A stretch of DNA of 64,000 bases. Source: Chiridota heheva (Eukaryota; Echinodermata; Holothuroidea; Apodida; Chiridotidae). Below, one piece after another: positions 1,942-54,900 of this stretch (its first letter is position 1; the number at the start of each line of letters is the position of its first letter). The notes under the pieces were generated by a model. The model was not told where the DNA came from. It ran no database searches and saw nothing but the letters and a program-made list of their open reading frames with translations. Made by a program: the position numbers and the translations under genes. The DNA is taken from positions 1,011,001 through 1,075,000 of the forward strand of contig JAIGNY010001464.1 in assembly GCA_020152595.1 (NCBI GenBank), in the 5' to 3' direction.

Positions 1942-2435
1942 CAGTCCGGTCGACGCTTCCGATCGGGAGACCTCCCAATTGGGAGATTTCTTGTCATTAT
2001 AAGCCACAATGCATCTTTCCAAATTTAAATCTCTCTAAAGAAATACTTAAACGATAGAATAAGTTTAAGTCAAAGATAGGGAAAATGCATGCGAAATGTT
2101 CTAATTGTATTGGTGCAACAGAGAGGTAGAATTATTTTCTCCATTTTCACCAACGCAAATTTGACTTTCACCAGGGAATTTTAAAGTAATTTTTTAAAAT
2201 TAATTTCAATAGTTCCTGAAGGGTACATTTTAAAATTTTAGTCACCAGCGAAAACTCAAATTACACAAAAAGTTCCAGAAAAATAAATTTCAGCATCATT
2301 TTCAACTTCATACAATTTTAGATTTTTACAGAATTTGAAAAGCAAAAAATAATTTTAATGGTTGAAATTTTGAACACTTTAATTATGGTCACTGCGCATG
2401 TCTCGATCTCCCGATCGGGAGCGTGGACCGGACTG
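1942..2435. mobile_element. MITE, CAGTCCGG family 1, intact copy with 5-bp target duplication
   Basis: A 494-bp element bounded by CAGTCCGG and CCGGACTG, with identical TTAAA on both sides (1937-1941 and 2436-2440). Each end carries nested palindromes of the type CCCGATCGGG and GGGAGATCTCCC. The interior is AT-rich and non-coding. Related copies sit at 19747-20116, 39188-39781 and 62515-63025. It has no transposase, so it is non-autonomous. The superfamily is not assigned. Confidence 0.85.
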
Positions 2436-4074
2436 TTAAAGGTTCTTGTACCTTACACTCTAAATAAGAGAACAAATGTATAACTATCTTTCATAGATTT
2501 ATATAAAAATCGTCTTGGACCTGTGCGTGTTACACCTTTTAAAGTTCGACTATGGACATCTAGCAGATCTTATATATGTAAAAGAGCACGGAATTCTGAA
2601 TAGAATGGTTTTTAAAATTAATAAAAAGCCTATTTATTTTTCAAGTTATGACTAAACAAAGTTTCATGATTTGTTTATTTGCCCGGAATTTGTGATATAC
2701 TAAGAGGAATACATCTCAAAATCTTTATATATAAAAAGACACAAATGGAATAAACTAACAATTACAAAATGAAACAAATTAAAAAAACAAATACTTTTAA
2801 AATAACACACTCGTCAATATTTCGACACAAAAGATTGGTGATGCACATTTGCCATTACTTTTGTCAGTATATCAAAATATGAGGGGTTTTTTTTTCTTGC
2901 TCGATACTTTATTTACTCATTTCTTCAGAAAAATGCAATTCTGAATTCCTACAAAATTGTTTTAAAAGTCCACGTTATACATATCCATTATAAGGTTTCC
3001 TTTGTGTAAGTTTATTTATATATTATTATCAGAAAGTTTAATTAGTCAACTTCCTAACTTTGTAATAAGTTTGTATTTATTGATTTCATATAGCTCTCTC
3101 CTACAATTGTCTGAATTGTCCCAGATATAAATAATGATACGACTTATAAATTGACGTCAAAATATTAGTGGGAAATAAAGACTTTAGATTGTTTTATTAT
3201 CCATCTGTATATATGAACATCGCGAAGTTAAATACTGCATCTATTCTAATTTATCAAAGTAAAAATCAATTTATCTTCCATATTTTATAAGATTCCTGAT
3301 AAGCACAATCTAATTCATAAAGATTTTATTCTTTTGTCTGAATGTGTTTTTCGATTCATAGCGCACTGCCCCCATTCACTTCAACCGCGTTCTTTATTGA
3401 TTTAAAGACTTATTTTGCCTAAAAGTGTATTTTATAACCTCTTATTAAGATATTTATTGATTAGAATATCTGTTCTATATTTATTTCTCCTATTTAACCG
3501 GAAATTGTCAATTTTGTATTGCATCTTATTATTAGGAAAATTCCGGTGTTTTCATCTAGAAAGAAAATTAACAAAAACTGAGAAAAAGAAATACCAGTGC
3601 AGTATATCGTTCCTTTCTCTTTTCGTGTCTTTCGCATTAATATCAGATCAAGTGAAATATAACCAAATTAAAAATAATCATAGGTTTTTATATTATTTAG
3701 GTAACTTGGAGGATAAAATAAAATACAAAATTCCAAATCAGAAAATGTAATAATTCTAATAATTTTGATCTACAGCAATGTCTGACTTATTAGAAAATAA
3801 CACCAGATACACCCTAAAAAAAGTTTGATTCAGCATGACTCCGCCGCCCCTAAAATCTATAAATATTTAGCAAAATTGTCAAGAAATTTAAGGCGTTACG
3901 TCACTCCTCTGTAGTATAATTTCTACCCCATCATTTTCAAATAAGATTAATTGTGACAAATTTTAAACTCGAATTCTTTTAAAACAAACAAGATATTAAC
4001 GAATGTCTGACTTTTAGGAAATAACATTATATATGAGTAACACACAATTTATCTACAACTGGAAGAAACCTCAT
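2436..4074. other. AT-rich intergenic DNA, no gene seen
   Basis: No conserved coding frame, RNA gene or repeat unit was recognised. The 111-residue open frame at 3415-3750 is rich in Leu, Ile, Lys and Tyr, as random AT-rich DNA would encode. Confidence 0.6.
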
Positions 4075-4255
4075 GGCATGCTCTTTTATGGAGCAAATCA
4101 AAACACTCATTTCAGCCATTTTTTAATTAAAGCCCCAGCATTGACAAAATACCTGAATCACTAAAGTTTCAAAATTTTTAAATAAAACTATTCAAATTCG
4201 TGGCTTGTAAAATCAAATTGAAAACAATAATCAACAAAAAGTTCACAAAACATAA
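4075..4255 (+). repeat. Dispersed repeat C, copy 1
   Basis: Diverged but collinear with 11040-11215. Shared blocks include GCTCTTTTATG, AATTAAAGC, CAGCATTGA and CAGAATCACTA-like runs, ending near AAGTTCA. The two copies lie in the same orientation on either side of the Polinton-like segment. Function unknown. Confidence 0.55.
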
Positions 4256-4780
4256 TACAAACTGAAGAAGGGGAAATTCCAGTGTAGTGCATTGGTAATT
4301 TCTCTTTTCGTGTGTTTTGTTATAATATCAAAACCAGTGAATAATAAAGGCATCAACAAGAATTTAACTTGCCCAACGGTTGGGGACTCATAATAGTAGT
4401 AAGATGAGCCTATACAGAGGTTGACCAATCAGGAGCCAGTACATGATGAATAATTCGGGCCAATAATTTCCAGTCTATTGCCCTTAAAATCACCAGTGTT
4501 AACAATTCACTGAAGAAAACATCCTTTCACAGTAGGAACGCATCCTCTGCCACAACTTGCACATGGTTGGCCCTGCAGTCATCCTATCCGCAATGACTTG
4601 GCTCTTTACAAGAAAGTCCATTGTGTACATACAGATGATAAAGAATGAATTAACTGATGCGTAAAACCACTAAGTGATATGTAGTGGGGTTCTTAATTGT
4701 TTCTAGCAGAATATAAAAGTCATACCCGCAAAAATGGGGGTTCTTGCGGGTAAAAAGACTGAAAATTGGTTGCGAGAGTT
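4256..4780. other. Intergenic DNA, no gene seen
   Basis: No family-like coding frame, RNA gene or repeat was recognised here. Confidence 0.5.
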
Positions 4781-4799
4781 AGGCGTTATGATTACTATT

Positions 4800-4862
4800 T
4801 TCATGAATATTCATGAATAAATTAGCATATTTCATGAATATTCATAGAATATGCAAATTAGG
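4800..4862. promoter_or_regulatory. Palindromic ATTCATGAAT cluster with octamer-like ATGCAAAT
   Basis: Two copies of TTCATGAATATTCATGAAT-like palindromic sequence, followed by ATATGCAAATTA, which contains the ATGCAAAT octamer. The block lies just outside the left histone-type stem-loop. Octamers are known POU-factor sites in histone H2B promoters, but a role here is only inference. Confidence 0.35.
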
Positions 4863-5008
4863 TGTAATACTGGCGCCTGATTGATTAACTTCTGTATAGG
4901 CTCTTCGAATTTTACCGACGACCGAAGGTTGTCGAATCTTTTGGAGGGAAAAGATAAACACACAACAAAAATGTCTTAATTCAATTTTCTCATTGTTATA
5001 TTTGTGGT

Positions 5009-5024
5009 GGCTCTTAATAGAGCC
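5009..5024 (-). terminator. Histone-type mRNA 3' stem-loop (left, minus strand)
   Basis: Read on the minus strand this is a 6-bp stem GGCTCT/AGAGCC with the four-base loop ATTA. It is preceded by ACCAAA and followed by ACCACA. This matches the replication-dependent histone hairpin in stem, loop size and both flanks. The downstream sequence (AATGAGAAAA) is only a weak U7-type purine element. The next 40 bases resemble those after the right-hand stem-loop at 9343-9358. It lies 67 nt past the stop of the small minus frame at 5092-5199. Confidence 0.8.
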
Positions 5025-5091
5025 TTTGGTTTTTTTTATCGATCGATCGATCAATCTACTGTCCTCCTGTAGTCAACTGATGCTGACCTGT

Positions 5092-5199
5092 TTATTTGCT
5101 CTCGTGCATCCTCAGCATTTCTAGATTTTCCAAGTGGGCTCGACACGAGGCAGTTCCTTTTTTCCAAGGTGGCTTAGACATGAATCGTTTCCAACTCAT
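5092..5199 (-). CDS. Small basic open frame before the left stem-loop (hypothetical)
   Basis: A 35-residue frame starting MSWKRFMSKPPWKKG and ending in HESK. It is Lys/Arg-rich at its N-terminus. It is the last frame on the minus strand before the histone-type stem-loop, 67 nt from its stop to the hairpin. I do not recognise it. It may be the tail of a longer gene broken by frameshift, because the frame stays open upstream of its ATG for some codons (FRFYTHHYKIKA). Existence as a protein is uncertain. Confidence 0.3.
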   Translation of the reverse strand: MSWKRFMSKPPWKKGTASCRAHLENLEMLRMHESK

Positions 5200-5292
5200 G
5201 GCTTTTATCTTGTAATGGTGGGTATAAAAGCGAAATGTCGGAGATCACTTCATGCGTGAACGTCTACGAGGTTTGCACCTGGTTGCATTCCC

Positions 5293-5457
5293 CTATTTGT
5301 TGTCTTTAGCTGCAAAGTTCCAAAGGTAGTCTGGTCTTTGACTCTGGTACTTCGGTGGTGTTCTGACGACAGATGTTTTTTGTACTCTGTTGTCAAACTT
5401 GCGTGCCAAACCGAACCGGTAGTAAGCTATGACGGGGTGTCTTCCCCTTGTCAGCAT
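5293..5457 (-). pseudogene. Minus-strand frame downstream of shared promoter P1 (unknown product)
   Basis: A 54-residue frame from the first in-frame Met after the predicted transcription start, running MLTRGRHPVIAYYRFGLARK and ending AAKDNK. It is Arg/Lys/Tyr-rich. The frame stays open upstream to 5601, but that part overlaps the CCAAT/TATA region and is probably not translated. Together with 5092-5199 it lies between promoter P1 and the left stem-loop, so it may be part of one small transcription unit now broken by frame changes. No family recognised. Confidence 0.3.
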
Positions 5458-5574
5458 CCTATTTTTGAACCCATTAGGGTAAGTAACTAGATTCTCGATT
5501 CCGGTACGTATTGATCCGAAATGTTGTGTCTTATCCAACGTCCAAAGGCAAAGTGAAGTCGACGTGCAAGACGT

Positions 5575-5648
5575 TGTCTTTTTATGCTCTTCTTCGACCA
5601 ATCAGAAGCCAGAAAGGTATGATGTCATCCGAGCTGTTGGCGCCCTTC
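5575..5648 (-). promoter_or_regulatory. Shared promoter cassette P1 (minus strand)
   Basis: Read on the minus strand: GGGCGCCAACAGC, then CGGATGACATCATACC (CRE/AP-1-like TGACATCA), then CTGATTGGTC (inverted CCAAT box), then ATAAAAAG (TATA-like, 5578-5585). The same order and wording recur on the plus strand at 9661-9738 and 9852-9922. Order and spacing fit an RNA polymerase II promoter. It drives toward the minus-strand frames and the left stem-loop. Confidence 0.7.
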
Positions 5649-5844
5649 TGAAGAAAAAGAAAACGAAGGTTAAAGTATCTGCCCCAACTTAGGCAGTGGT
5701 ACCATAGAAGTCATGCCATCGTTTTGTACTCCTTCCGTTATCATTCGATTCGTCCCCGCATCGGCCTTTCGATACACCAGTAAGCTCGATCTTACCTCAT
5801 ACAGTTTCGCCCAGTCCAATTCGTGGATTCTCGCCTCTCCGTAA

Positions 5845-6604
5845 CAGCAGTACTTCACCGACATATTAGCTCAAAACAACGTACTTTTACCGGGTGTGGA
5901 AGTACGACTCAAACTGCATCAAACTAAGGACTCTTTTTTTGTTTGACGTCGGGAGCTGAGCTGTCGACTTTCGTGTGATTTTCTTGGACGCCATTCTCTA
6001 CGTCCGCAAACTGACGTGCAGCGACACCCACGTGATCAACGACCTCGCACCTTCAACAGAGAACCGGTAAAAATCCGACGCACCATCATCCGAAATATCA
6101 CCATTTACCAAGATTTACAAGGAGACAATGTATTTCTGGGCGAGCTACCAAAGAGGATTGTGGTTTGTCTGGTGGACACGGCCTCTTTCAACGGCGCTTA
6201 CAGGAAGAATCCGTTTCGTTTCCAATCTTTTAAACTGAATTATGTCACGCTTCACGTCGATGAGAAACAATATCCGTCCACGCCGCTTACCCCCAACTTC
6301 GATTCACATTGAGCTTTCCGCTGTTACCTTCAACTGTTTTCGGCCACGGGTCGGTTGTACGGCGATGGGAACGTGGACATCACTCCGACGGATTTTCTGG
6401 ACGGTTTGACGCTGTTTTCTTTCGACCTGACGCCCGACAAATCCCACGGACAGCACTACACGGTCAATAAACAGGAATTCTTCGGGTGGATTTAGAATTT
6501 GCAGAGGCATTGGCTTCCACCACCACCTTGTCATCTACGCCGAATTCGACAACATCATCGAAATAGATCAAAACCGCAACATCATCTACGACTTTACCAA
6601 TTGA
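5845..6604 (+). pseudogene. Polinton-type capsid protein pseudogene, C-terminal part
   Basis: Recognisable segments in order are VLLPGVEVRLKLHQTKDSFF near 5881-5940, AILYVRKL near 5990, VKIRRTIIRNITIYQ to FQSFKLNYVTLHVD at 6061-6265, LFSFDLTPD near 6410, and VIYAEFDNIIEID near 6530-6568. These resemble the jelly-roll capsid family of Polinton/Maverick elements, often annotated in invertebrates as F54H12.2-like. The frame is broken: TGA at 5944-5946, a shift before 5978 and another before 6044, TGA at 6310-6312, TAG near 6493, and a shift before 6530. The reading ends at TGA 6602-6604, five bases before the protease ATG. The N-terminal half of the usual protein is missing or unrecognisable. 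Described as a fossil only. Confidence 0.75.
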
Positions 6605-6608
6605 AATC

Positions 6609-7012
6609 ATGGAGACGTCCGATATTGTTCAAATGTTCAGCAAAGACGCTTACACACGATGACTCGTGTGCGACTTGTTCGACGTCATGGTGTTCAACAC
6701 GGATCCTAGTTGGAAGCTGGGTCGGCATTGAGTCGCTATTTACGTGCCCAAAGTCGGTCCTTGGGAATATTTGTACTCCTACCGCGAACCCCCGACGTTT
6801 CTTCCATTCGACGTTTCTTGAAAAATAAACCGTTTGTTTACAACAACAAACCGCTTCAGAGTCCTACCTCTGACGTATGTGGTCACTATTGCATTTATTA
6901 TCTGGTTCACAGGGCATGAGACTCGGACATAAACGACATGGCTGGTTTTTGTAAAGAAAATGAACGCAACGACGACGACGTGGTCACATTTGTACTTCAA
7001 CATTACGGTTAA
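6609..7012 (+). pseudogene. Adenain-like cysteine protease pseudogene
   Basis: Starts METSDIVQMFSKDAY at 6609, directly after the capsid remnant. The family hallmarks are a His before VAIYVPKVG (the usual Trp after the His is a TGA at 6729-6731) and the Cys block SDVCGHYCIYYL near 6873-6905. Other breaks are TGA at 6660-6662, TGA at 6819-6821 with a change to the frame used by the Cys block, and TGA at 6917-6919. The last frame, ending FVLQHYG, stops at 7010-7012. In Polintons and adenoviruses this protease matures virion proteins. Capsid followed by protease supports the assignment. Inactive as it stands. Confidence 0.8.
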
Positions 7013-7133
7013 AACGATGATATAAGACGTTCGTTTAATGGTCATTGATTCAAATACGTATAAGATGTTCTTTTACAGGTGATTATAACTCAAATGTTTT
7101 CATAATGTTCTTCGTAATGATTAGCCCCTCTAT

Positions 7134-7268
7134 AAAACACATTGATGAGTCATCCGAAATGACCGAAGCCGGAACAGAACTCCGTCTCTTAAGTAGTGAA
7201 TCGTTGTTTTACTAGAAGGTGCTTGTTGCGCATATATTGTTTTAAAAAGTTATAAAAACGCGACGACG
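7134..7268 (+). promoter_or_regulatory. Candidate promoter of the PC4-like unit
   Basis: Contains TGATGAGTCATCCG (AP-1-like TGAGTCA) and GTTATAAAAACG (TATA-like, about 7249-7257) between the protease remnant and the first PC4-like segment. It lacks the CCAAT part of the shared cassette, so it is a different promoter type or a decayed one. Confidence 0.4.
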
Positions 7269-7279
7269 ATGGTGTGTAA

Positions 7280-7562
7280 CATTCAGTCAAAACTCAAGAC
7301 ACGATCATCGAAGCATCAACAAACACTACCCGACCACAACGATTAACCGATGTCCTCGCCGACACACAAGACAAGAAAGCTGTCGCATTAGGAGGCGAAC
7401 GCTATCTCACTGTCTCTGGCTTCAACGGAAAGTTTTACGTTCATGTACGACAATTTTTTACACACCCGAATGTAGGGACGACGCCTGTGGCGACCAAGAA
7501 AGGCATTGCCCTCAAACTAGAGCAATGGGCCGTGATAACTCGTCGAGCATCTGGTAACGGAT
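7280..7562 (+). pseudogene. PC4/p15 (Sub1)-like domain, segment 1
   Basis: The frame from 7280 carries VALGGERYLTVSGFNGKFYV, HVRQFF and KKGIALKLEQW over 7377-7540. This is the strand pattern and the C-terminal KKGIaL..EQW signature of the PC4/p15 coactivator family, whose members bind single-stranded DNA as dimers. The only nearby upstream ATG (7269) is in another frame, so the start is broken or lost. The frame runs on to TAA at 7637-7639 but loses likeness after about 7555, where a second similar segment begins in a new frame. Family call from motif reading only. Confidence 0.6.
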
Positions 7563-7958
7563 ATGCTCAAGAAATTAAAGGAAAGTACCCATCGCATCCA
7601 TTCGGGAGAAAAGCTCAAGCTGGCGCTTGGACAACATAACTACGTCACAATTTCATCATTCAAAGACATTCTCTACGTACATATCAGAAAGTACAGCAAC
7701 GCCCCTTCTATCGGCAAGTACCTAGCAAGAAGGGTATTGCTCTCACACCAGAGTAATGGATGATATTGGCACGTCGCGAGAGTTCGTCAAGTGTGTATTT
7801 TGAAAGACGAAGAAGAAGACAAAATTGAGCAAAGAAACATTCAAGCAAGAAAGAACAGCACGCTTTCAGTGCCGTGTAGCAAACCCGTGTTCGCACCCAC
7901 GGATATGCCGACGTTTAAAAACCTTGCCTCACAGTCCAAAAACATATCTTCTAATTGA
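7563..7958 (+). pseudogene. PC4-like domain, segment 2, with acidic tail
   Basis: Opens MLKKLKESTHRIHSGEKL, then LALGQHNYVTISSFKDILYV and HIRKY, parallel to segment 1. After a frame change the next frame gives KKGIALTPE, then TAA where segment 1 has Gln, then Trp. The Trp is followed by a stretch resembling the RR.S run after segment 1. A tail KDEEEDKIEQRNIQARK lies in a further frame, which stops at 7956-7958. The parallel with segment 1 suggests an ancestral tandem two-domain protein or two adjacent genes. Confidence 0.55.
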
Positions 7959-8078
7959 AATGAAGCAGGATATCATCGGTTGATAATTGACTAGCGTCCT
8001 GTACTGAAAAAGTTATGAAAGTGCCCGAATCCAAAAAACACCCATCATTCTTTCGTAGCTTTTCGAGAAAGACACATC

Positions 8079-8433
8079 ATGGCCCAAACCGGTTGGAATA
8101 AAGTAAAGAGGAACGGTAACGTGTACTACCATAACAAGGCTACGGGGAAATTCGATTCTAACCACCTCCCTCAGATCCTGAAAAAACATACCTTTGAAGA
8201 GAGCTTTGAAAATGCAGAGTTACGACAAAGTAAGAGACAGTCGCGAATAGGTGACCTGAGCTTATCCCGTAGGAGAGGACGTGTATGTGTCTACATTGTA
8301 GTTTGAAAGCAGCAGATACGTACATCTTCGCAAGTATGCCAAAACCAACCCCGGCACAATACCTTGAGTCACGGCTTAAGGCATCGCCATGGGAGAAGGC
8401 GTTTTAGATGAACTCTGCAAGAACAAAATATGA
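8079..8433 (+). pseudogene. PC4-like segment 3 with WW-like N-terminus
   Basis: Starts MAQTGWNKVKRNGNVYYHNK, whose W, YY.N and TGK spacing faintly recalls a WW domain without the second Trp. The same frame stops at 8304-8306. Another frame from about 8275 reads GEDVYVSTL, a TAG, then FESSRYVHLRKYAKTNPG, a TGA, VTA, a TAA, and GIAMGEGVLDELC. That matches the YVHiRkY and GIA landmarks of segments 1 and 2. Three stops and at least one frameshift make it a pseudogene. The WW suggestion is weak. Confidence 0.5.
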
Positions 8434-8472
8434 TATCTGAACTGGCATTGCATTACTATACGTCTAACGTCA

Positions 8473-8901
8473 ATGGAGCCGTCGCATGAGCGGTTCCGTC
8501 ACACCCTGCCTGAAAAATTACGTTTGCTTTTAGGAAAACAGATTTACATCAGTCTGACCGCAGAAGATGAAACCATTCTTGTGGACATGCGCCATTTGAC
8601 CACGCAATGCAAACGATCAGTGACCCAAACGGACACACCAGCCGTCAATGGGCCGTCATACCCGGAGAAAAGTGATTTCTCTCAACCTGGACCAATGGTG
8701 CAAACTGGAGAGCTTGGAAGGTTATATACAGTAGAACATTTAAAAGCACTGGTTAAAGTACCTATCTGAGAGAAAAAGCCCCTTAAACTGGACGAATTGT
8801 GCGAACAGATGGTCGTGGAAAATACAACAGAACATTCGAAAGCACCCGCAAAGAAAAGACCCCGTTCACCGTCGTCGTCGCCACCTGTCACCGCAAGGTA
8901 A
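8473..8901 (+). pseudogene. PC4-like segment 4 with basic nuclear-signal tail
   Basis: An open frame of 98 residues (8473-8769) with LRLLLGKQIYISLTAEDETI and LVDMRHLTT, aligning loosely with the strands of the other PC4-like segments. After a frame change the text reads KKPLKLDELCEQM, recalling VLDELC of segment 3. It then reads APAKKRPRSPSSSPP, which looks like a nuclear localisation signal, and stops at 8899-8901. An AATAAA follows at about 8970. Weakest of the four PC4 calls on the fold, but the shared LDELC tail supports relatedness. Confidence 0.4.
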
Positions 8902-8962
8902 ATTTCAAACTGGACATACAACCCATCATCATCGAGAAACCAGGAGAACCCTCAACATCTGT

Positions 8963-9322
8963 TTGAGCAATAAAATGTGTATTATTATGCCATATAAGCT
9001 GCGTCTTATTTTCTGGCATTGTTTTGAAAAAGAAAAAATAAAGTTTGAAAAAAGAAGAAGACGAAGAACTTGTTTTGACCAACGGAGAGTGGATGAGGAT
9101 GTTGGCGGCGGCCGACAAATAGTGGCTCGTGGCCGACGAGTGCCCTCCAAAGATGGAAAACGAAGCATAGACAGAGGCAAAGACAAAAGCAAAGACAGAA
9201 GCAACGACAAAAGCAAAGACAGAAGAAAAGACAGAGGAAGAGGTGGTGGAGACAGGACGATCAGTGGAACCCAAACTGTCACAGCGCTGTGTGAGTGCCC
9301 GTTCTGTCCAGTCCTGGCGTGA
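8963..9322 (+). CDS. Very basic open frame ending just before the right stem-loop (hypothetical)
   Basis: An uninterrupted 119-residue frame. It includes KFEKRRRRRTCFDQRR, then a degenerate K-D-R-S repeat (GKDKSKDRSNDKSKDRRK), then GRGGG. Its stop lies 20 nt before the histone-type hairpin at 9343, a spacing normal for histone genes. A basic core or condensing protein is conceivable, but several frames on both strands are open here because the repeat AAAGACARAAGCAAAGAC-like unit lacks stops. A competing frame reads LTNGEWMRMLAAADK with two later stops. I cannot decide which frame was real. Confidence 0.35.
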   Translation: MSNKMCIIMPYKLRLIFWHCFEKEKIKFEKRRRRRTCFDQRRVDEDVGGGRQIVARGRRVPSKDGKRSIDRGKDKSKDRSNDKSKDRRKDRGRGGGDRTISGTQTVTALCECPFCPVLA

Positions 9323-9342
9323 CAGAACCCTAAGAACCCAAA

Positions 9343-9358
9343 GGCTCTTTTAAGAGCC
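9343..9358 (+). terminator. Histone-type mRNA 3' stem-loop (right, plus strand)
   Basis: 6-bp stem GGCTCT/AGAGCC with loop TTTA, preceded by ACCCAAA and followed by ACCACA. This is an essentially perfect match to the replication-dependent histone 3' hairpin bound by SLBP. It sits 20 nt after the stop of the basic frame at 8963-9322. No histone gene is nearby. Confidence 0.88.
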
Positions 9359-9369
9359 ACCACAGGTAT

Positions 9370-9379
9370 AAGAAAGAGC
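9370..9379 (+). promoter_or_regulatory. U7-type histone downstream element
   Basis: AAGAAAGAGC starts 11 nt after the stem. In sea urchin histone pre-mRNA a CAAGAAAGA element stands at about this distance, and in vertebrates a purine-rich element pairs with the 5' end of U7 snRNA (GCUCUUU). The match in sequence and spacing makes U7-dependent 3' cleavage plausible for this former transcript. Confidence 0.65.
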
Positions 9380-9393
9380 AAATTGATTCAAGA

Positions 9394-9635
9394 CATTCTT
9401 ATCGTTTGTAACGGCCAATGCTTGTTCTTATCGTTTGTTGCCTAACATTATATCGTCCATAATTGTTCTTATCGTTTGTAACGTCCATATTTGTTCTTAT
9501 CGTTTATTGTCCATATTTGTTCTGTGGTGTCAATTAAATTAAGACATTCTTACCTTTTTTATGTGACATTTTATCGTCCATATTTGTTCTTATCGTTTGT
9601 TGTCCATGTTTGTTCTTATCGTTTTATTTTCTGTT
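9394..9635 (+). repeat. Minisatellite of a TTCTTATCGTTTGT unit
   Basis: Repeats of TTGTTCTTATCGTTTGT followed by variable (A/T)(A/G)CGTCCATA text, period roughly 30 bp with interruptions, directly after the right stem-loop. A further AAATTAAGACATTCTTA inside it echoes the sequence that follows both stem-loops. Confidence 0.7.
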
Positions 9636-9660
9636 GTGTCATTGTTTTTTGTTTTTCAAA

Positions 9661-9738
9661 AGAGCACCACCAACTCGGATGATATCACACCTTCTGGCTT
9701 TTAATTGGTCAAAGAGATCGGAACAAAAAAGTATAAAT
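9661..9738 (+). promoter_or_regulatory. Shared promoter cassette P2 (plus strand)
   Basis: AGAGCACCACCAACTCGG, then GATGATATCACACC, CTTCTGGCTTTTAATTGGTC (inverted CCAAT at 9704-9708) and TATAAAT at 9732-9738. It is the diverged sister of P1 and P3. It is followed by ATTCAGAACTTCAGAGCAAT, which recurs after P3 and may be the start-site region. No ATG-led frame follows before P3. Confidence 0.7.
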
Positions 9739-9851
9739 TGAGCAATCCTGTTCCATTCCTGACATACGTATTCAGAACTTCAGAGCAATCACATCAAAAA
9801 TTGCAGTAAGACATTTAATACAGTTTAGAGCTAACGCCAGAGTACAATAAC

Positions 9852-9922
9852 AAAAGAGCGCCAACAACCCGGATGACATCATACCTTCTGGCTTCTGATT
9901 GGTCAAAGAGATACGTATAAAT
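9852..9922 (+). promoter_or_regulatory. Shared promoter cassette P3 (plus strand)
   Basis: AAAGAGCGCCAACAACCCGG, GATGACATCATACC, CTTCTGGCTTCTGATTGGTC (inverted CCAAT at 9898-9902) and TATAAAT at 9916-9922. It is closest to P1. About 50 bases downstream an ATG opens the frame at 9974, a normal promoter-to-start distance. P2 and P3 lie about 190 bp apart and look like a local duplication. Confidence 0.75.
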
Positions 9923-9973
9923 TGAACAATCTTGTTCCATTGGTATTCAAAACTTCAGAGCAAACACATCATC

Positions 9974-10138
9974 ATGGATTGGGAAATCTTAGCCGACCAA
10001 ATGTTTAAACGCTAGAGAAAATGCAGTCCTAGACCTATCGACTACGGTAAAGTTATAGACCACCTCGAAAACAGATGGAACTGTTTCGTACCTTTCAAAG
10101 ACGGGTTTTATCATGCAGAAGGCGATGTAATACTACAA
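9974..10138 (+). pseudogene. Truncated gene behind promoter P3 (unknown product)
   Basis: ATG at 9974 gives MDWEILADQMFKR, then TAG at 10013-10015. The same frame then stays open (RKCSPRPIDYGKVIDHLENR and on to EGDVI) until repeat A begins at about 10138. It reads like real protein with one nonsense change, cut off by a later insertion or rearrangement. I do not recognise the family. Its promoter is the same cassette used by other genes of the segment, so it probably belongs to it. Confidence 0.5.
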
Positions 10139-10660
10139 GTTTGTATATCTGGTGTCAAAAGCTGCTATCTTTATGAAATTATGTTATCTTGTGGTTAATG
10201 ATAATGTTGTTGTTGATAGAATTGTTGAACTGTGGAGAAACTTTCAATTTATACCACTTTTTATTTCTTGGAGCAGGAAAAATACGAAATTTCAAATAAT
10301 GCACAACATACATGCTGTAACGTCAGGACGTTACGTACACAATAGGCCTGCCCCCTACATACGCTGTAGGCCTACACACACACAAAAGCGTGTATACCCA
10401 CAGTATGTGACGGTACACACAAGACTGAAGTAGGACGCTATCGATAATCACCGATTTTGTCACTCCAGTCCCGTTGTGTCTCATCCCAGCTTGACTATTG
10501 GTGTCCTAAGTTACCTTCAAATGATTCCTCCAGCTTGTCGTCTTCATAAAATGTATAAATTTCATCTGGAAAACATCACTTTCTGCTGTAACGTTGGTCG
10601 CCATTTTTTCATACTTGTATCTTCTACATAGTCAGATAGTTATCTTCCGTACAACTGGAA
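10138..10660 (-). repeat. Dispersed repeat A, copy 1, with exon-like frame
   Basis: The reverse complement matches 38158-38700 over its whole length, diverged. Read on the minus strand it starts TACGGAAGATAACTA, contains ATGGCGACCAACGTTACAGC, and a coding-like stretch CFPDEIYTFYEDDKLEESFE ending at a splice-donor-like AAG/GTAACT. It continues to AAAGATAGCAGC and ends ACAAAC. Relative to the other copy it has an extra A that breaks the longer frame. It truncates the Polinton-like gene at 9974. Confidence 0.7.
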
Positions 10661-10663
10661 AAA

Positions 10664-11012
10664 AACCTATAGACCATTTCGAATCAGAATCGACGATTTC
10701 CGGAAAATTGATTTAAATAATTTCACATGATCGAGATTCATGTGTCCTGGGGGAATCTTATTGACCAATCAAATACTGGAAATCTTGGCCGTCTGCACAA
10801 TTCCAAACGGTATAGGACCAAGTGTATGAAAAATGTTTTTAAGCATACGTATCATACGTGCGTTATACATGAAGGAAGTACGCGCGCGTATTGCTGCTTA
10901 CATTTTTTTCCTCAAAACTGCACCTGATTGGTTGGAAAACAAAAGGAAAAGTTATCTCATCATTTGATTAGTCGAAGTTAGTACTGAAACAAAAATCTCG
11001 TTCGGCTAAACA
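10664..11012 (+). repeat. Dispersed repeat B, copy 1
   Basis: Collinear with 40283-40575. Shared landmarks are CCTATAGACC, GAATCGACRATTTCCGGAAA, ATCATACGTGCGTTATACAT, CCTCAAAACTGCAC and ATCTCGTTCGGCTAAA. Non-coding. It contains two CCAAT-type boxes (GATTGGTTGG and TGACCAATC). Ends are not defined well enough to name a transposon class. Confidence 0.7.
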
Positions 11013-14000
11013 GGTAAACTTGATTTAAAAAAGTCTATAGCATTCTCTTTTATGCAACAGAAATACAAGACCCAATTCAGTCCAATTAAAGCATCAGCAT
11101 TGATAAGATACCAGAATCACTAGGTCTCAAAAAAAATTATATTACAACTATGACTTAACAAGCAAAATCTTGGCTTATAAAACCAAATCGAACTAAAATT
11201 TCACTTGAAGTTCATTGGATTTTACAATATGTAAGTTCCGAAACCCTATTTTGATCCCCAAAATACGAAAGCATACTTCTAATGGAAAATGCAGAATTGA
11301 ATAATGTATATACATTGACATTGTGTCTACTAAAAGACTTATTATACAACAAGGATTTCCATTTTGGCATTAATAATATACAAAGGAAATAACAGTCCTT
11401 TGTATCAAGGAATTTAAACTCAGGCATCTGTCAGTATTGTCCCACTTTCTCCTTTAAATGTATTTTATAGTATGTGCCTTAATTCAACTCAAGTGGTTAG
11501 CTTCGACATTTTGAAGAATCGCAACTGTGACTTGGTGTACTTTGCATGTCATTAACATATTGATCCGCTGGAAAGAAAAATTTGTTATTTCAGAGAATGA
11601 AAATAAGATTCATAAACGAAAGACAACCAGTCGATTTCTTACCCCCGCTTCATCTTTCTTAACTACTTTTCCTGTCCGAAAATTCCGGTTCAAGGAATCG
11701 GTTGGCATTTTCGAGGACCGTTCCAAATACGAAGAAAACTAATATACACGTTGCATTTGAAACTTCACACAAAAAACTTGAAAACACATATTCGATTTTG
11801 TAAATGCACTTATTTGCTTCTTAAACACCACTTACCGATGGCCTTATAGTACCTTACAAGAACTAACGTGGCATTTTCAAGGATTTTATCTAAAAACGTG
11901 TTTTCTTTAAAACTCATTTGCATTTCAGAAAAAGCAATATGTTTACTTCTGTCTAAAGTTTGCAAAACTTGAAACAAAAATTCGATTTGGAATCCGGTAA
12001 CCTCCCTCAAAAATGCCTCTTTCAATCTCGTTGTTTTGGGATTGATTGATAGATGCTAATGCTTGATGTTTGTCTAGGTTCTCAACACTTAAAACACGGA
12101 GCGGAAACGAGAGCATATTTGAAACAAGTACTAGTCATCACATACGTGCCCAGCTTAAGTCGCGAGGAAACGTCGTTAGTCAATAACCATCAATATCTTA
12201 CCGTGACTGGGCGTCACTTAATTCTGGCTAATATGCACTTATCCTAACAAAAACTCCATTAATTTCGAGAGGGTGATGGTAACGTTTGGCGTTTAGGTAA
12301 CTAGTCGTGACTTCCGTTCTAAGAGGAAGTTGCTTTTAGGAACAGAGGTGTAGAGAAAATCTACCTAAGATATCAAACAACAAATTTGCCATGGTTTGTG
12401 CAAACTTTCCCCTTTCCCTCGCACTTGATCGATGATTAGTAAATTGTGCATTATAAGGACTCTTTGTTGCAAGTTAAAGTGCAATTCAAGATACCGTATG
12501 TTTCTTTGGAGAAAAACAACAAACTCACACGAATTGCCACCACGGGAATACTCGATCAAATATGTCCTTTCACTCCTATGAGTGGAAGAAAATTTTGATA
12601 TTTAAAACAGCAAAATTTTGGGCAGTCTTTCTTCACACTTCTTTTTGAAGAAAACGAAACCCCGTGATTGATAAAGAGTATGATCTGTCCTTAATTCTAA
12701 TACAAGAATCCACTTAAATCTCACCGCTTTTCGCTCTCTAACGCGGTCAACCCACTCATAGAGTTTTTCATTCTTAAAGGTCAAAAACCTACATCAAATT
12801 CACTTCAAAATGTTCATCCAATCAAAATGCTTGTTTCATCTTTTATTGGACAATATGAAAGTTTATTGTTGTTCTTGTTCTTTTTTAACATCACTCTGTG
12901 TATATTTTGATTTAAGAATGATTTAATATATGAACAGTGTTGATATAAGTGCCGTAAATGATGCTGTGTTGGACCAAAAGGTTTTATTGACTAATTAGTC
13001 GCTTAACCTTTTCAACGTCACAGCACTTGTCATAAAATTTGAAAACTATGGAGATTGTGGGAGGTTTATCTTGTTAAGTAATTAATAAATGTGATTGGAC
13101 AAAATGTATAATAACGTCTTATCCAAGACAGCTTTAATAACTTTAAAATGAAAAACGTCACGCAAACCTATTTGTTCAAAAATTTGCGCAGAAAGTTTAA
13201 GCAACGGACGGACAATATGTAATGTATATAAAACATTAGTAGAAAGCAGCCATGTCCAGATGTCAAAGACGTAATGTGATTCTTACAAACATTTACATTT
13301 TTTTTCTATATGTTACTCTTATATAAGTTTTGTTTGTAATTTCTTCTGCTGCCAGATCAAATCAGGTTAGTGTTAGGGTTCAATAAAATTATGTGAAGTT
13401 ATTATTCATTAATTTACGGGAGAGAGTATTATTTTGAGATCGATCAAGTATCTAAAACTACAAGTATAGGTTTTGGTATCCTGTGTCAAAATGCGCACGA
13501 ATTATAATAAATCTGGGAACAAATGTATGTAAGGGTATAAACTAGATGTCACTTGCAGGAACCATCCTATTAGAACACCTTTTCATCAACACTACACCGA
13601 TTATTTGTGCTTAGAGGTCAACTTTTCATGTTTAGGGTACCACACATGGCACCGTCATAGCATGTTAGTAATACTTTCTTAGGTCTATCTAATAAAGGTA
13701 AGTCTGTGCTCTCATATATTATTGTCATATTGTCAAAATGTTCACTTTCTGCTATGGTATAGTTAATGGCATGATTGTGACTTCATCATGGCCCGGATGG
13801 TATGATTATGACCTCATGACGTTACCATGACTCGGCTGCATACGGGGCGTGGGAGGAACTACAATGATTTCTCGTAGATCCAATAATAAGTTTGCATGAA
13901 ACGTGTTGATGAAGCTTCCACCCACCATTGCACAGGTAGGGAATGGTGTTATCGTTTTAGGTGTAGAAGCAATATGAATGCTTTACGGCAGAAGACCACT

Positions 14001-20116: not shown

Positions 20117-20983
20117 TTTAAGTTGAATGGAGTGAATTTCTTGTTAACAAAATGAGCATATTGTCGCAAAAATATAACACTGTAAATTACGTGGTAAAAT
20201 GAACCACAATGAAAAATGTAATGTAATTACATATATACAAAGTCAGGTTAATTAGTATATTTTACCGATTTTTGAGCATTTAATGAAGGAGACCATTATG
20301 CAGGACATATGGTATTGGAACATTGCGAATTCATGTTTTCTTTTCCCTAATTTAGATCTCAAAATACTTCGAGTACTTGTATTTAACGAGTACGTTGTAA
20401 AATAACTTGTAACACAGTTAAATTCATACATTGGGATTGAGGTTTTAAATGAAAACAACGGAGCTTATTCGCACGGTTATTCGTGATATAGGCTTACTAT
20501 GGAGCATTATTTAATAGCTCCATGGGCCTACTTATGCCATGATATGCCAATACTGTAATCTTAATGAAATTGTTGTATTTGTTTTGCGGTATTTCTCCGT
20601 AAGTATGAATGTGAAATACATATTTACTAATCTAATAATTGATAATCACACTTGAATCGAATACAGCTAAGTTGTTGAGGTAGCGGTACTCATCATAGCG
20701 CCAAAAGGAGGTAAGGCTTTGAAATGATTTGCATTTGTGTTTTTCTGATAAATGGGTCTGTATCACGGAACGACCTGGATCAGGGATTTACAATTGGACA
20801 GTTGGGAAGGGCAGAGTACATAATCAAGCTCTATTAGCATGTACATCCTTGACTCGTAGTCCACTATAGATTGTATTAAAAGTAATCACTACTAGACCTC
20901 ATTACAGTCACTCAAAGCAATATTCATAACCTATTTTTGTCGATTTTCCTTCTCTGTTAATTGTGATTTACAGAGGATATACG

Positions 20984-21341
<358 letters not shown>

Positions 21342-22130
21342 TCATTTGTTACTATTAATTTTTGTTAGGTCTAATCTAAAAAAATTTAAGCGATTAAAAT
21401 TGTTTCCTTTAAGTTCTGTACTATTCGAAAATTAAGGTTGTTGGTCAGTACGGTCTCTGAAGGCAAATTGAGAAAACTAATGATAAAGGAAGTATTCAAA
21501 AAATTATGTTCCATTGAGCATGTATTTAAATGTTGCACGGCAGACACCAAACATTTATTGGACAAAAGTGGCACAAGGTTTTGTGTACCGTATATGGGTA
21601 ATGTATATAACATGAAACCCAATTTACGCAAGTTGAAAAAATCTTCAAACTTCTTTACGATGAAAATTTACTTACTTCATCAGACTCTATGGATAACTTT
21701 TCATTGCTTTATTTCCGTTAAACACCAAACAATTATTATTGGCTACTAATTTTGTTTTTATACATACACATATTTCTTTAAATGCTTTGACATGTAAGCC
21801 TACATAAAGCTGCCTTTCATTTGGCATCGTCAGACAAAAATACGTCGCCTATTCCCCACATAAAAAAAAGACAAAAGTAAAAGCCTTCTTCAGCATCTCG
21901 ACCCGTGTTCAGATGATAATCCCACATTTGGCGTGAAACTAAGCCATCATAGTACGGTTTAACACTGGTTGGTATTCTGACAATTTTTCTCAAGAAGATT
22001 AGAACAAAGACATATTAAATCTCTATTAAAAACTGACGCTTGGATTATTAAATCGAATAATGAATACAGCTAATTAGCAACAGAATACGTCTTAACATCA
22101 GTGAGAGAATAAAACTTGTTGAGCAATAAC

Positions 22131-41227: not shown

Positions 41228-41600
41228 TCGCCTTGTGTTGCCAAGAACTAATCGCGTCAGTGGGGACTACGCCTTTTCTGTCCTGGGTCCATGTTTGTGG
41301 AATGAGCTATATATTGCAATCCGCCAGGCTCCGAATGTTTATACTTTTAAGAAGGCCCTTTAGACTCATCTTTTTCCTACTGAATAAGTTTTATGCTGTC
41401 TTTAATATTTATTTTCTTGTTTTATCATTTTGTTTGGGATTTTTACCAATTTTTGTATGCTTGTATATTGTCCTGCAATTCTTTTACTTTTTGATATTGT
41501 ATATTAAGAGTTTGTCTAAGTATTGTCACTCTTATTGTAAAGCGCCTCGATCCACGGGAGATGCGCTATATAAATGAGTGCAAAAATAATACTAATAATT
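41228..41600 (+). mobile_element. 5'-truncated LINE: reverse transcriptase C-terminus and 3' tail
   Basis: The frame from about 41231 reads LVLPRTNRVSGDYAFSVLGP then CLWNELYIAIRQAPNVYTFK KAL, a TAG at 41361-41363, and THLFPTE with TAA. The pattern (basic P.R..R, YAFSV.GP.LWN.LP..IR..., FK..L.THLF) is the extreme C-terminus of L2/CR1-type non-LTR retrotransposon ORF2. After a 3' UTR comes AAAGCGCCTCGATCC, then GGGAGATGCGCTATATAAAT, then ATT repeats. This is a typical LINE tail with a small GCGC hairpin. Dead copy. Confidence 0.8.

Positions 41601-42250
<650 letters not shown>

Positions 42251-53168: not shown

Positions 53169-54900
<1,732 letters not shown>

Follow-up and report, generated by a model that had tools for sequence, protein, structure and literature searches.

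Histone-type mRNA 3'-end signals on three genes of Polinton-like elements in the genome of Chiridota heheva

Polintons (Mavericks) are 15-20 kb long and carry terminal inverted repeats together with a 6-bp target-site duplication. In histone mRNAs, according to the accessible text of PMC1924863, SLBP binds a hairpin and the U7 small nuclear ribonucleoprotein (snRNP) pairs with a downstream element, which is followed by cleavage past the hairpin. In the present study, sequence features of both systems were found together in a stretch of 64,000 nucleotides (nt) from Chiridota heheva (GCA_020152595.1, contig JAIGNY010001464.1, positions 1,011,001 to 1,075,000), hereafter the window, in which the relic of a Polinton-like element carries two histone-type hairpins. 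Complete, oriented, spaced and conserved histone-type signals end three genes of the Polintons of this host, here called A, B and C, and are absent from two internal pieces of such elements. Judging from the sequence, these Polintons most probably use the SLBP/U7 pathway of histone 3'-end processing for the three genes.

The two 16-nt hairpins of the window were confirmed by direct sequence check at 5009..5024 on the minus strand and 9343..9358 on the plus strand, where the sequence-only reading of this DNA had placed them. Both fold as a 6-bp stem with a 4-nt loop, the left one (loop ATTA, in which the T at position 1 is lost) with a z of -4.6, better than 200 of 200 shuffles, and the right one (loop TTTA) with a z of -3.0, better than 199 of 200. 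The Rfam family RF00032 (Histone3, gathering score 34) matches the left hairpin at 4983-5029 on the minus strand (39.7 bits, E 3.5e-8) and the right one at 9338-9384 on the plus strand (37.9 bits, E 1.7e-7). These were the only two Histone3 matches at the gathering score in the 64-kb window, and no other Rfam family reached its own threshold there. The histone flanks that had been described as CAAA and ACCA are present as CCAAA and ACCAC. In addition, the right hairpin is followed, 11 nt past the stem (+11), by a perfect U7-type downstream element AAGAAAGAG (9/9, 9370..9378, plus strand), and the left one, also at +11, by a decayed element with 7/9 of its letters (4989..4997, minus strand); because this element is also present, the signal is fuller than the sequence-only reading had seen. 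Each hairpin lies 3' of a gene reading toward it, as had been claimed. On the left this is a broken gene A (5062..5490, minus strand; tblastn E 1e-48), which the genome search with an open A copy matches at C1460:1016062-1016490 with 3 stops, and on the right a partial gene B (9057..9322, plus strand), which ends ...CPFCPVLA and whose stop codon (9320-9322) precedes the hairpin by 20 nt. No histone frame was matched in window 2001-13000, in agreement with the earlier statement that no histone gene is present.

The host genome (1.1 Gb, 3744 contigs) holds 417 exact places of the hairpin core AAAGGCTCTNNNNAGAGCCACC, a pattern that left the loop free and put no constraint on the downstream element, and the reversed control pattern gave 0; these counts, together with the shuffles, rule out a chance origin of the hairpins. 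A whole-genome Histone3 search, in which the best 75 of 217,804 candidates were scored, returned at least 74 matches, at least 71 of them over the cut-off. The same covariance model, proposed earlier as a check on relatives, also passed its cut-off at 18 places in 14 related loci of this genome. From the 417 places 100 were listed, and 28 of these were dropped (11 on C781, 1 on C664 and 16 already examined; C denotes contigs of the host genome and L denotes loci fetched from it). A random sample of 40 from the remaining 72 consisted of 15 ends of gene A, 15 of gene C, 8 of gene B, 1 of H2B and 1 without assignment, so that 38 of 40 follow A, B or C, which supports the earlier idea of an element that borrows a histone ending. 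The downstream element AAGAAAGAG was present with at least 8/9 letters at 35 of the 40 sites, each time at +11. Of the first 27 element ends, some with non-exact cores, 16 have it, 14 of these at +11, and shuffles reached at least 8/9 in 3.5%. All of 8 host-type histone ends, with L033 (a solo end) and repeat units of a single cluster among them, have it at +11. Altogether, 81 distinct exact ends were assigned, 29 after gene A, 22 after B, 23 after C, 5 after histones and 2 without assignment (L033, L070), the H3 ends with their different upstream flank being left out; since most loci were fetched for having a hairpin, this count shows what the hairpins serve and not how frequent they are per gene.

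It could be argued that the hairpins are left over from host histone genes or clusters that lie beside Polintons or received their insertions. Some Histone3 matches do mark real histone genes, in C781 and C664 (core histones) and in the H1 arrays of C1229 and C3175, and C102 has an H4-like end standing alone. We consider the probability of this explanation negligible, because no histone frame lies near the window hairpins and the great majority of the sampled sites end A, B or C; among 20 fetched loci of 6.5 kb, moreover, histone frames were found in 3, genes A, B or C at the hairpin in 16 and neither in 1. For the window itself, an origin from histone debris was rejected on the first two of these grounds, and the sampled sites likewise do not fit a solo histone pseudogene, which the sequence-only reading had raised. 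As separate observations, the H4-like 3' end L033 (G000:C102:1367743-1367789) has hairpin and downstream element with no histone frame at the locus, and the H1 genes form tandem arrays of about 1.4 kb on C1229 and C3175, separate from the C781 core cluster, whose unit is about 6 kb.

Three recurrent short frames, A, B and C, stand upstream of the hairpins in the other loci. In two relatives measured for each, gene A encodes 140 and 156 amino acids with isoelectric points of 11.6 and 11.0, gene B 125 and 127 amino acids (4.6 and 4.1; several copies end in CPFC) and gene C 111 and 114 amino acids (5.8 and 5.1). The stop codon lies 20-33 nt before the hairpin in clear examples. A protein search with one open copy of gene A, blind to the hairpin, gave at least 152 matches in the genome, a floor because the best 150 of 501 candidates were scored, and gene C also gave at least 152. 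For a sample taken from the gene side, we used the first 46 listed A matches that reach residue 150 or beyond, with one at the very end of C477 skipped. Seven already examined copies, all with an exact core, were dropped and the 3' flanks of the other 39 were fetched. The core was exact in 24 flanks, had one mismatch in 9, two in 3 and four in 1, and was missing in 2, so that 36 of 39 copies have a hairpin at two mismatches or fewer, and in most gene A copies it stands 37 nt past the last matched base. Shuffled flanks gave 0 of 1950 at up to 4 mismatches. At least 8/9 letters of AAGAAAGAG were found in 32 of the 36 flanks, always at +11. Intact relatives do not lack the hairpin, an outcome that the sequence-only reading had considered: among 15 copies open over the matched stretch, 14 carry it (11 exact and 3 with one mismatch) and 1 is without it. 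Furthermore, the first 20 loci together with the window contain 17 copies of these three genes besides the index copies (three of the 17 in the window), of which 14 have the hairpin with two mismatches or fewer and 3 do not. A palindromic run like GATCGATCGGCCGATCGAT was also seen just 5' of the hairpin in the 3' untranslated region of many A and C genes (L051-L056); it could form a second RNA stem or mark the repeat.

The Polinton identity of the segment, which had been suggested earlier, is borne out by relatives with a family-B DNA polymerase and an adenovirus-type protease, and by the ends of one copy. The polymerase family PF03175 was matched in L142, a locus next to gene A of C518 (E 2.6e-13), and in L040 (E 3e-6). 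A frame of L143 resembles the cysteine protease S273R (PDB 6lj9, E 1.1e-4), and Pfam Peptidase_C5 matched the protease frames, L041 among them, with E 0.003-0.004, below its cut-off. A 344-amino-acid frame of L143, without a Pfam match, may correspond to the Polinton capsid protein. One frame of L032 looks by eye like a retrovirus-like integrase and has no Pfam match; neither an integrase nor, with no search aimed at it, a packaging ATPase was established. Relatives of PC4 are also present: an open L143 frame matches PF02229 with E 4e-25, a second PC4-like frame (L143:527-1420) with E 4.7e-9 and L041:1637-2164 with E 4.5e-5, below the cut-off. The Polintons here encode two such PC4 (transcription coactivator p15) proteins, one of them with two repeats (window 7280-8766; L143:527-1420 and 1512-2126), and PC4 proteins are not known from standard Polinton gene lists. 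The pieces L142 and L143, which are internal parts of two other elements (11.5 kb), contain the polymerase, the capsid-side, the protease and the PC4 genes, and they gave no Rfam match up to E 0.1.

Terminal repeats and target-site duplication were checked in one copy, C401, which has kept both of its ends. Its terminal inverted repeats are 98.1% identical over 313 nt and, further inward, 96.3% over 188 nt. The repeat starts with AGTAGTAAGAGG, holds the downstream element and the hairpin, and ends at the last codons of C and A. ATACAC flanks the copy on both sides as a target-site duplication, allowing extra ACT units at the right end. Because the signal lies inside the repeat, both outermost genes of C401 obtain their 3' end from it. 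Their promoter and leader are also common (90% over 123 nt), and the promoter module of A and C consists of GGATGACATCATACC, CTGATTGGTC and a TATA-like box, with GCGCC in several copies. The orientation of the signals follows a strict geometry. Among the 100 listed sites, with C781 left out, hairpins at most 2.5 kb apart on one contig are on the same strand in 17 of 17 pairs, and those 2.5-30 kb apart, on nine contigs, point outward (minus, plus) in 16 of 18, the other two being on C411. When A and C matches were paired (145 of the 152 A and 150 of the 152 C matches were used), 41 of 44 gene pairs 4-30 kb apart faced outward, and their distance was 14-20 kb in 31 of the 44 (range 6.5-29.7 kb). 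In some copies, e.g. L031 and L047 (also L032), A and C stand side by side on one strand, and in C42 a B hairpin is found at either side; element families have shuffled their terminal gene sets.

The position of the hairpin inside the C401 repeat raises the question of a DNA function, namely that it is a palindrome of the terminal repeat for replication, excision or protein priming whose likeness to histone ends is superficial. The loop TATA, which turns the 16-mer into a perfect palindrome and occurs at 46 of the 100 listed sites, would fit such a role. Gene B, however, has the hairpin too, and at the listed sites of C401 and C492 its hairpin is without an exact counterpart at the other end, although C42 has both; host-like loops TTTC or TTTG, moreover, are present at 7 of the 8 sampled B sites. 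Nor would a DNA palindrome call for ACCA, for T at the first and third loop positions or for a strand-specific AAGAAAGAG at +11. T (uridine) at loop positions 1 and 3 is the rule for animal histone hairpins, and among the 100 listed sites, histone genes included, it is found in 97 and 98, respectively, with positions 2 and 4 variable. In view of the B genes, the loop rule and the downstream element, we regard a pure DNA palindrome as very improbable. As to the distribution of loops, TATA is the loop of 11 of the 15 sampled gene A hairpins and of 12 of the 15 sampled gene C hairpins.

Processing by the SLBP/U7 pathway has further to be distinguished from signals of host histone origin that the elements captured and now carry passively, without function. 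A host source is itself likely, since the sequence past the purine element is similar to host histone ends for another 40 nt (mean local score 16.1 versus 10.3 for shuffles, n=74); we believe that the elements probably acquired the signal from a host histone gene, after which it came to serve several of their own genes. As promoter and 3' end are common to A and C, one capture could serve both genes, and these two observations would also suit a passive passenger. What disfavours it is the way in which the signal has been kept. Two C genes of different families have a synonymous difference (pS) of 0.35 and a ratio of nonsynonymous to synonymous change (dN/dS) of 0.48, while their 59-nt 3' modules differ at 3 sites (3/41 is the fair figure, 18 of the 59 letters being fixed by the site search). 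Among the listed sites, loop variation is found at positions 2 and 4 and is rare at 1 and 3, and the gene A copies found by protein keep the hairpin in nearly every case, most at the same distance. Passive carriage is therefore improbable in our judgement. The pairwise dN/dS of A and C ranges from 0.48 to 1.00, a mixture of constraint and decay.

Each of the three short units A, B and C has its stop about 20-40 nt before a complete signal of SLBP-type hairpin, ACCA and U7-type purine element. If the SLBP/U7 pathway is used, host SLBP and U7 snRNP would cleave the A, B and C transcripts 3' of the hairpin, and the resulting mRNAs would be poly(A)-free, stable and translated mainly in S phase. 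Where A and C occupy the two ends of the element, the repeat gives both the same ending, and cleavage may also halt transcripts near the element ends. The RNA-binding domain of host SLBP (PF15247) was matched over the cut-off as two pieces at C2543, and in one piece the match runs through 2 stops.

Several points weigh against this conclusion and should be considered together. All the evidence comes from one host genome. A search of IMG/VR viral contigs found no relatives by hairpin pattern or by protein, which says little about animals at large. Cleavage, poly(A)-free mRNA and the tie to S phase are what we infer for A, B and C from histone biology. For the host U7 small nuclear RNA no RF00066 match was obtained, but the control genomes gave none either, and a pattern search returned 31 candidates versus 121 in the reversed control, with none convincing among the 10 of 31 inspected. 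AATAAA or ATTAAA follows the stem within 120 nt in 11 of 74 element ends and in 0 of 5 host ends, and some copies could therefore use polyadenylation. Because the repeat is shared, the endings of A and C are not independent, and because part of the module letters was fixed by the search, hairpin conservation between sites found by their hairpin is partly built in. Many copies are decaying, with dN/dS up to 1.00. In ten further pairs A and C are within 4 kb of each other, in 8 cases on one strand, and the two genes therefore do not always occupy opposite ends. Finally, for genes A and C neither a Pfam family (E<=0.1) nor a convincing relative in the PDB was found, and gene B gave only a weak Pfam match below the cut-off.

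The purpose of the ending can also be viewed differently from its mechanism. The signals may be active for another reason, either to yield poly(A)-free mRNA that escapes control through poly(A) or mainly to terminate transcription at the element ends, and this would be compatible with SLBP/U7 processing as such. In C401 only a few hundred nt separate the outermost hairpins from the termini, and transcripts reading through there would run out of the element; S-phase timing is itself a prediction from the DNA sequence. SLBP is cell-cycle regulated in animals, and SLBP-dependent mRNA consequently tends to follow S phase; we consider another purpose rather unlikely. Going further, SLBP/U7 ends and the shared A/C promoter, with its CCAAT-type and TATA-type boxes, may together form a histone-like expression programme, in which A, B and C would be made poly(A)-free only during host replication and the basic protein A would act on new element DNA in a histone-like manner. 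Protein A is very basic and B and C are acidic; we offer this possibility tentatively, with a chance somewhat short of even.

The remaining features of the window copy describe a broken relic. Its left terminus, the outer end of the terminal inverted repeat (AGTAGTAAGATGAGCC...), is at 4395..4441 on the plus strand; the same terminus was found in L061/L062, L047, L048 and L031 and aligns to the C401 repeat end. The inner part of the left repeat (4832..5008) was recognised by blastn of the reverse complement of window 3501-5010 against the C401 and C42 ends, and about 390 nt that are absent from the C401 repeat separate the two parts. Upstream of gene A, a promoter-like module (5578..5648, minus strand) with GGCGCC, GGATGACATCATACC, CTGATTGGTC and CATAAAAAG is common to the gene C modules in the window and in other loci (inverted repeats I3 and I6). 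Between the hairpins, all on the plus strand, follow broken frames at 5947..6492, which we take to be capsid-protein-like and which have relatives in L044 and, by eye, in the 344-amino-acid open frame of L143, with no Pfam match; a broken adenovirus-type cysteine protease frame at 6710..6916, which matches frames of L037, L041 and L044; two frames of a broken gene whose PC4-domain protein has two such repeats, at 7280..7760 (PF02229 E 3e-11, over the cut-off, and E 2e-4, below it); and a second, broken PC4-like protein at 8019..8766, recognised through its relatives L041:1637-2164 and L143:527-1420, the window frames themselves giving no PC4 match. No polymerase frame was found between the window hairpins. 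Beyond gene B, another promoter-like module (9851..9921, plus strand; GAGCGCC, GGATGACATCATACC, CTGATTGGTC and TATAAA), identified by motif comparison across loci, precedes the 5' part of gene C (9974..10147, plus strand; tblastn E 1e-21). The copy is cut inside this gene near 10147, and no hairpin follows (within 420 nt the best candidate has 7 mismatches). A TTATCGTTTGTTGTCCATATTTGTTC-like unit is tandemly repeated over window 9407-9642, 3' of the gene B hairpin and downstream element. Elsewhere in the window, long simple-repeat tracts at 20968-21345, 41516-42223 and 54157-54660 give rise to spurious open frames.

With regard to earlier work, the sequence-only reading knew of no description of histone-type endings on Polintons, and no report was found in the literature searched, from which subscription papers were mostly outside; a term search of the accessible text of PMC11071308 also found no mention. 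It is likely that such endings are new to print. If the reading is correct, a virus-like element has entered an mRNA class thought to be reserved for histones, breaking that rule. Complete histone-type endings on the element probably number in the hundreds (417 cores, with the sample drawn from 100 listed), and they would provide a natural variant set of the SLBP/U7 signal. They also suggest how the element may time itself to host S phase, and RNA sequencing after poly(A) selection may miss genes A, B and C.

Overall, the element ends resemble those of replication-dependent histone mRNAs in the same stem letters, the CAAA and ACC flanks, T at loop positions 1 and 3, AAGAAAGAG at +11 and the close stop codon. 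This likeness holds for the host H1, H2A, H2B and H4 genes, the host H3 end being slightly different. Unlike in histone genes, the coding regions are those of the Polinton genes A, B and C, and the A and C loops are mostly TATA, with others TTTA, whereas the host histone loops seen were TTTC or TTTG. With Polintons (Mavericks) and adintoviruses, the elements share the family-B polymerase, the adenovirus-type protease, putative capsid-like genes and the A-C span, and, in C401, the terminal inverted repeats with the 6-bp target-site duplication; they differ from the known members in having histone-type 3' ends on A, B and C and in carrying the signal inside the terminal repeats. The 'Histoid' protein of adomaviruses and tailtomaviruses resembles a histone, and one such virus shares virion genes with adintoviruses, as stated in the accessible part of PMC11071296. 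These are likewise animal DNA viruses tied to histones, but there the link is a protein and here it is the mRNA ending.

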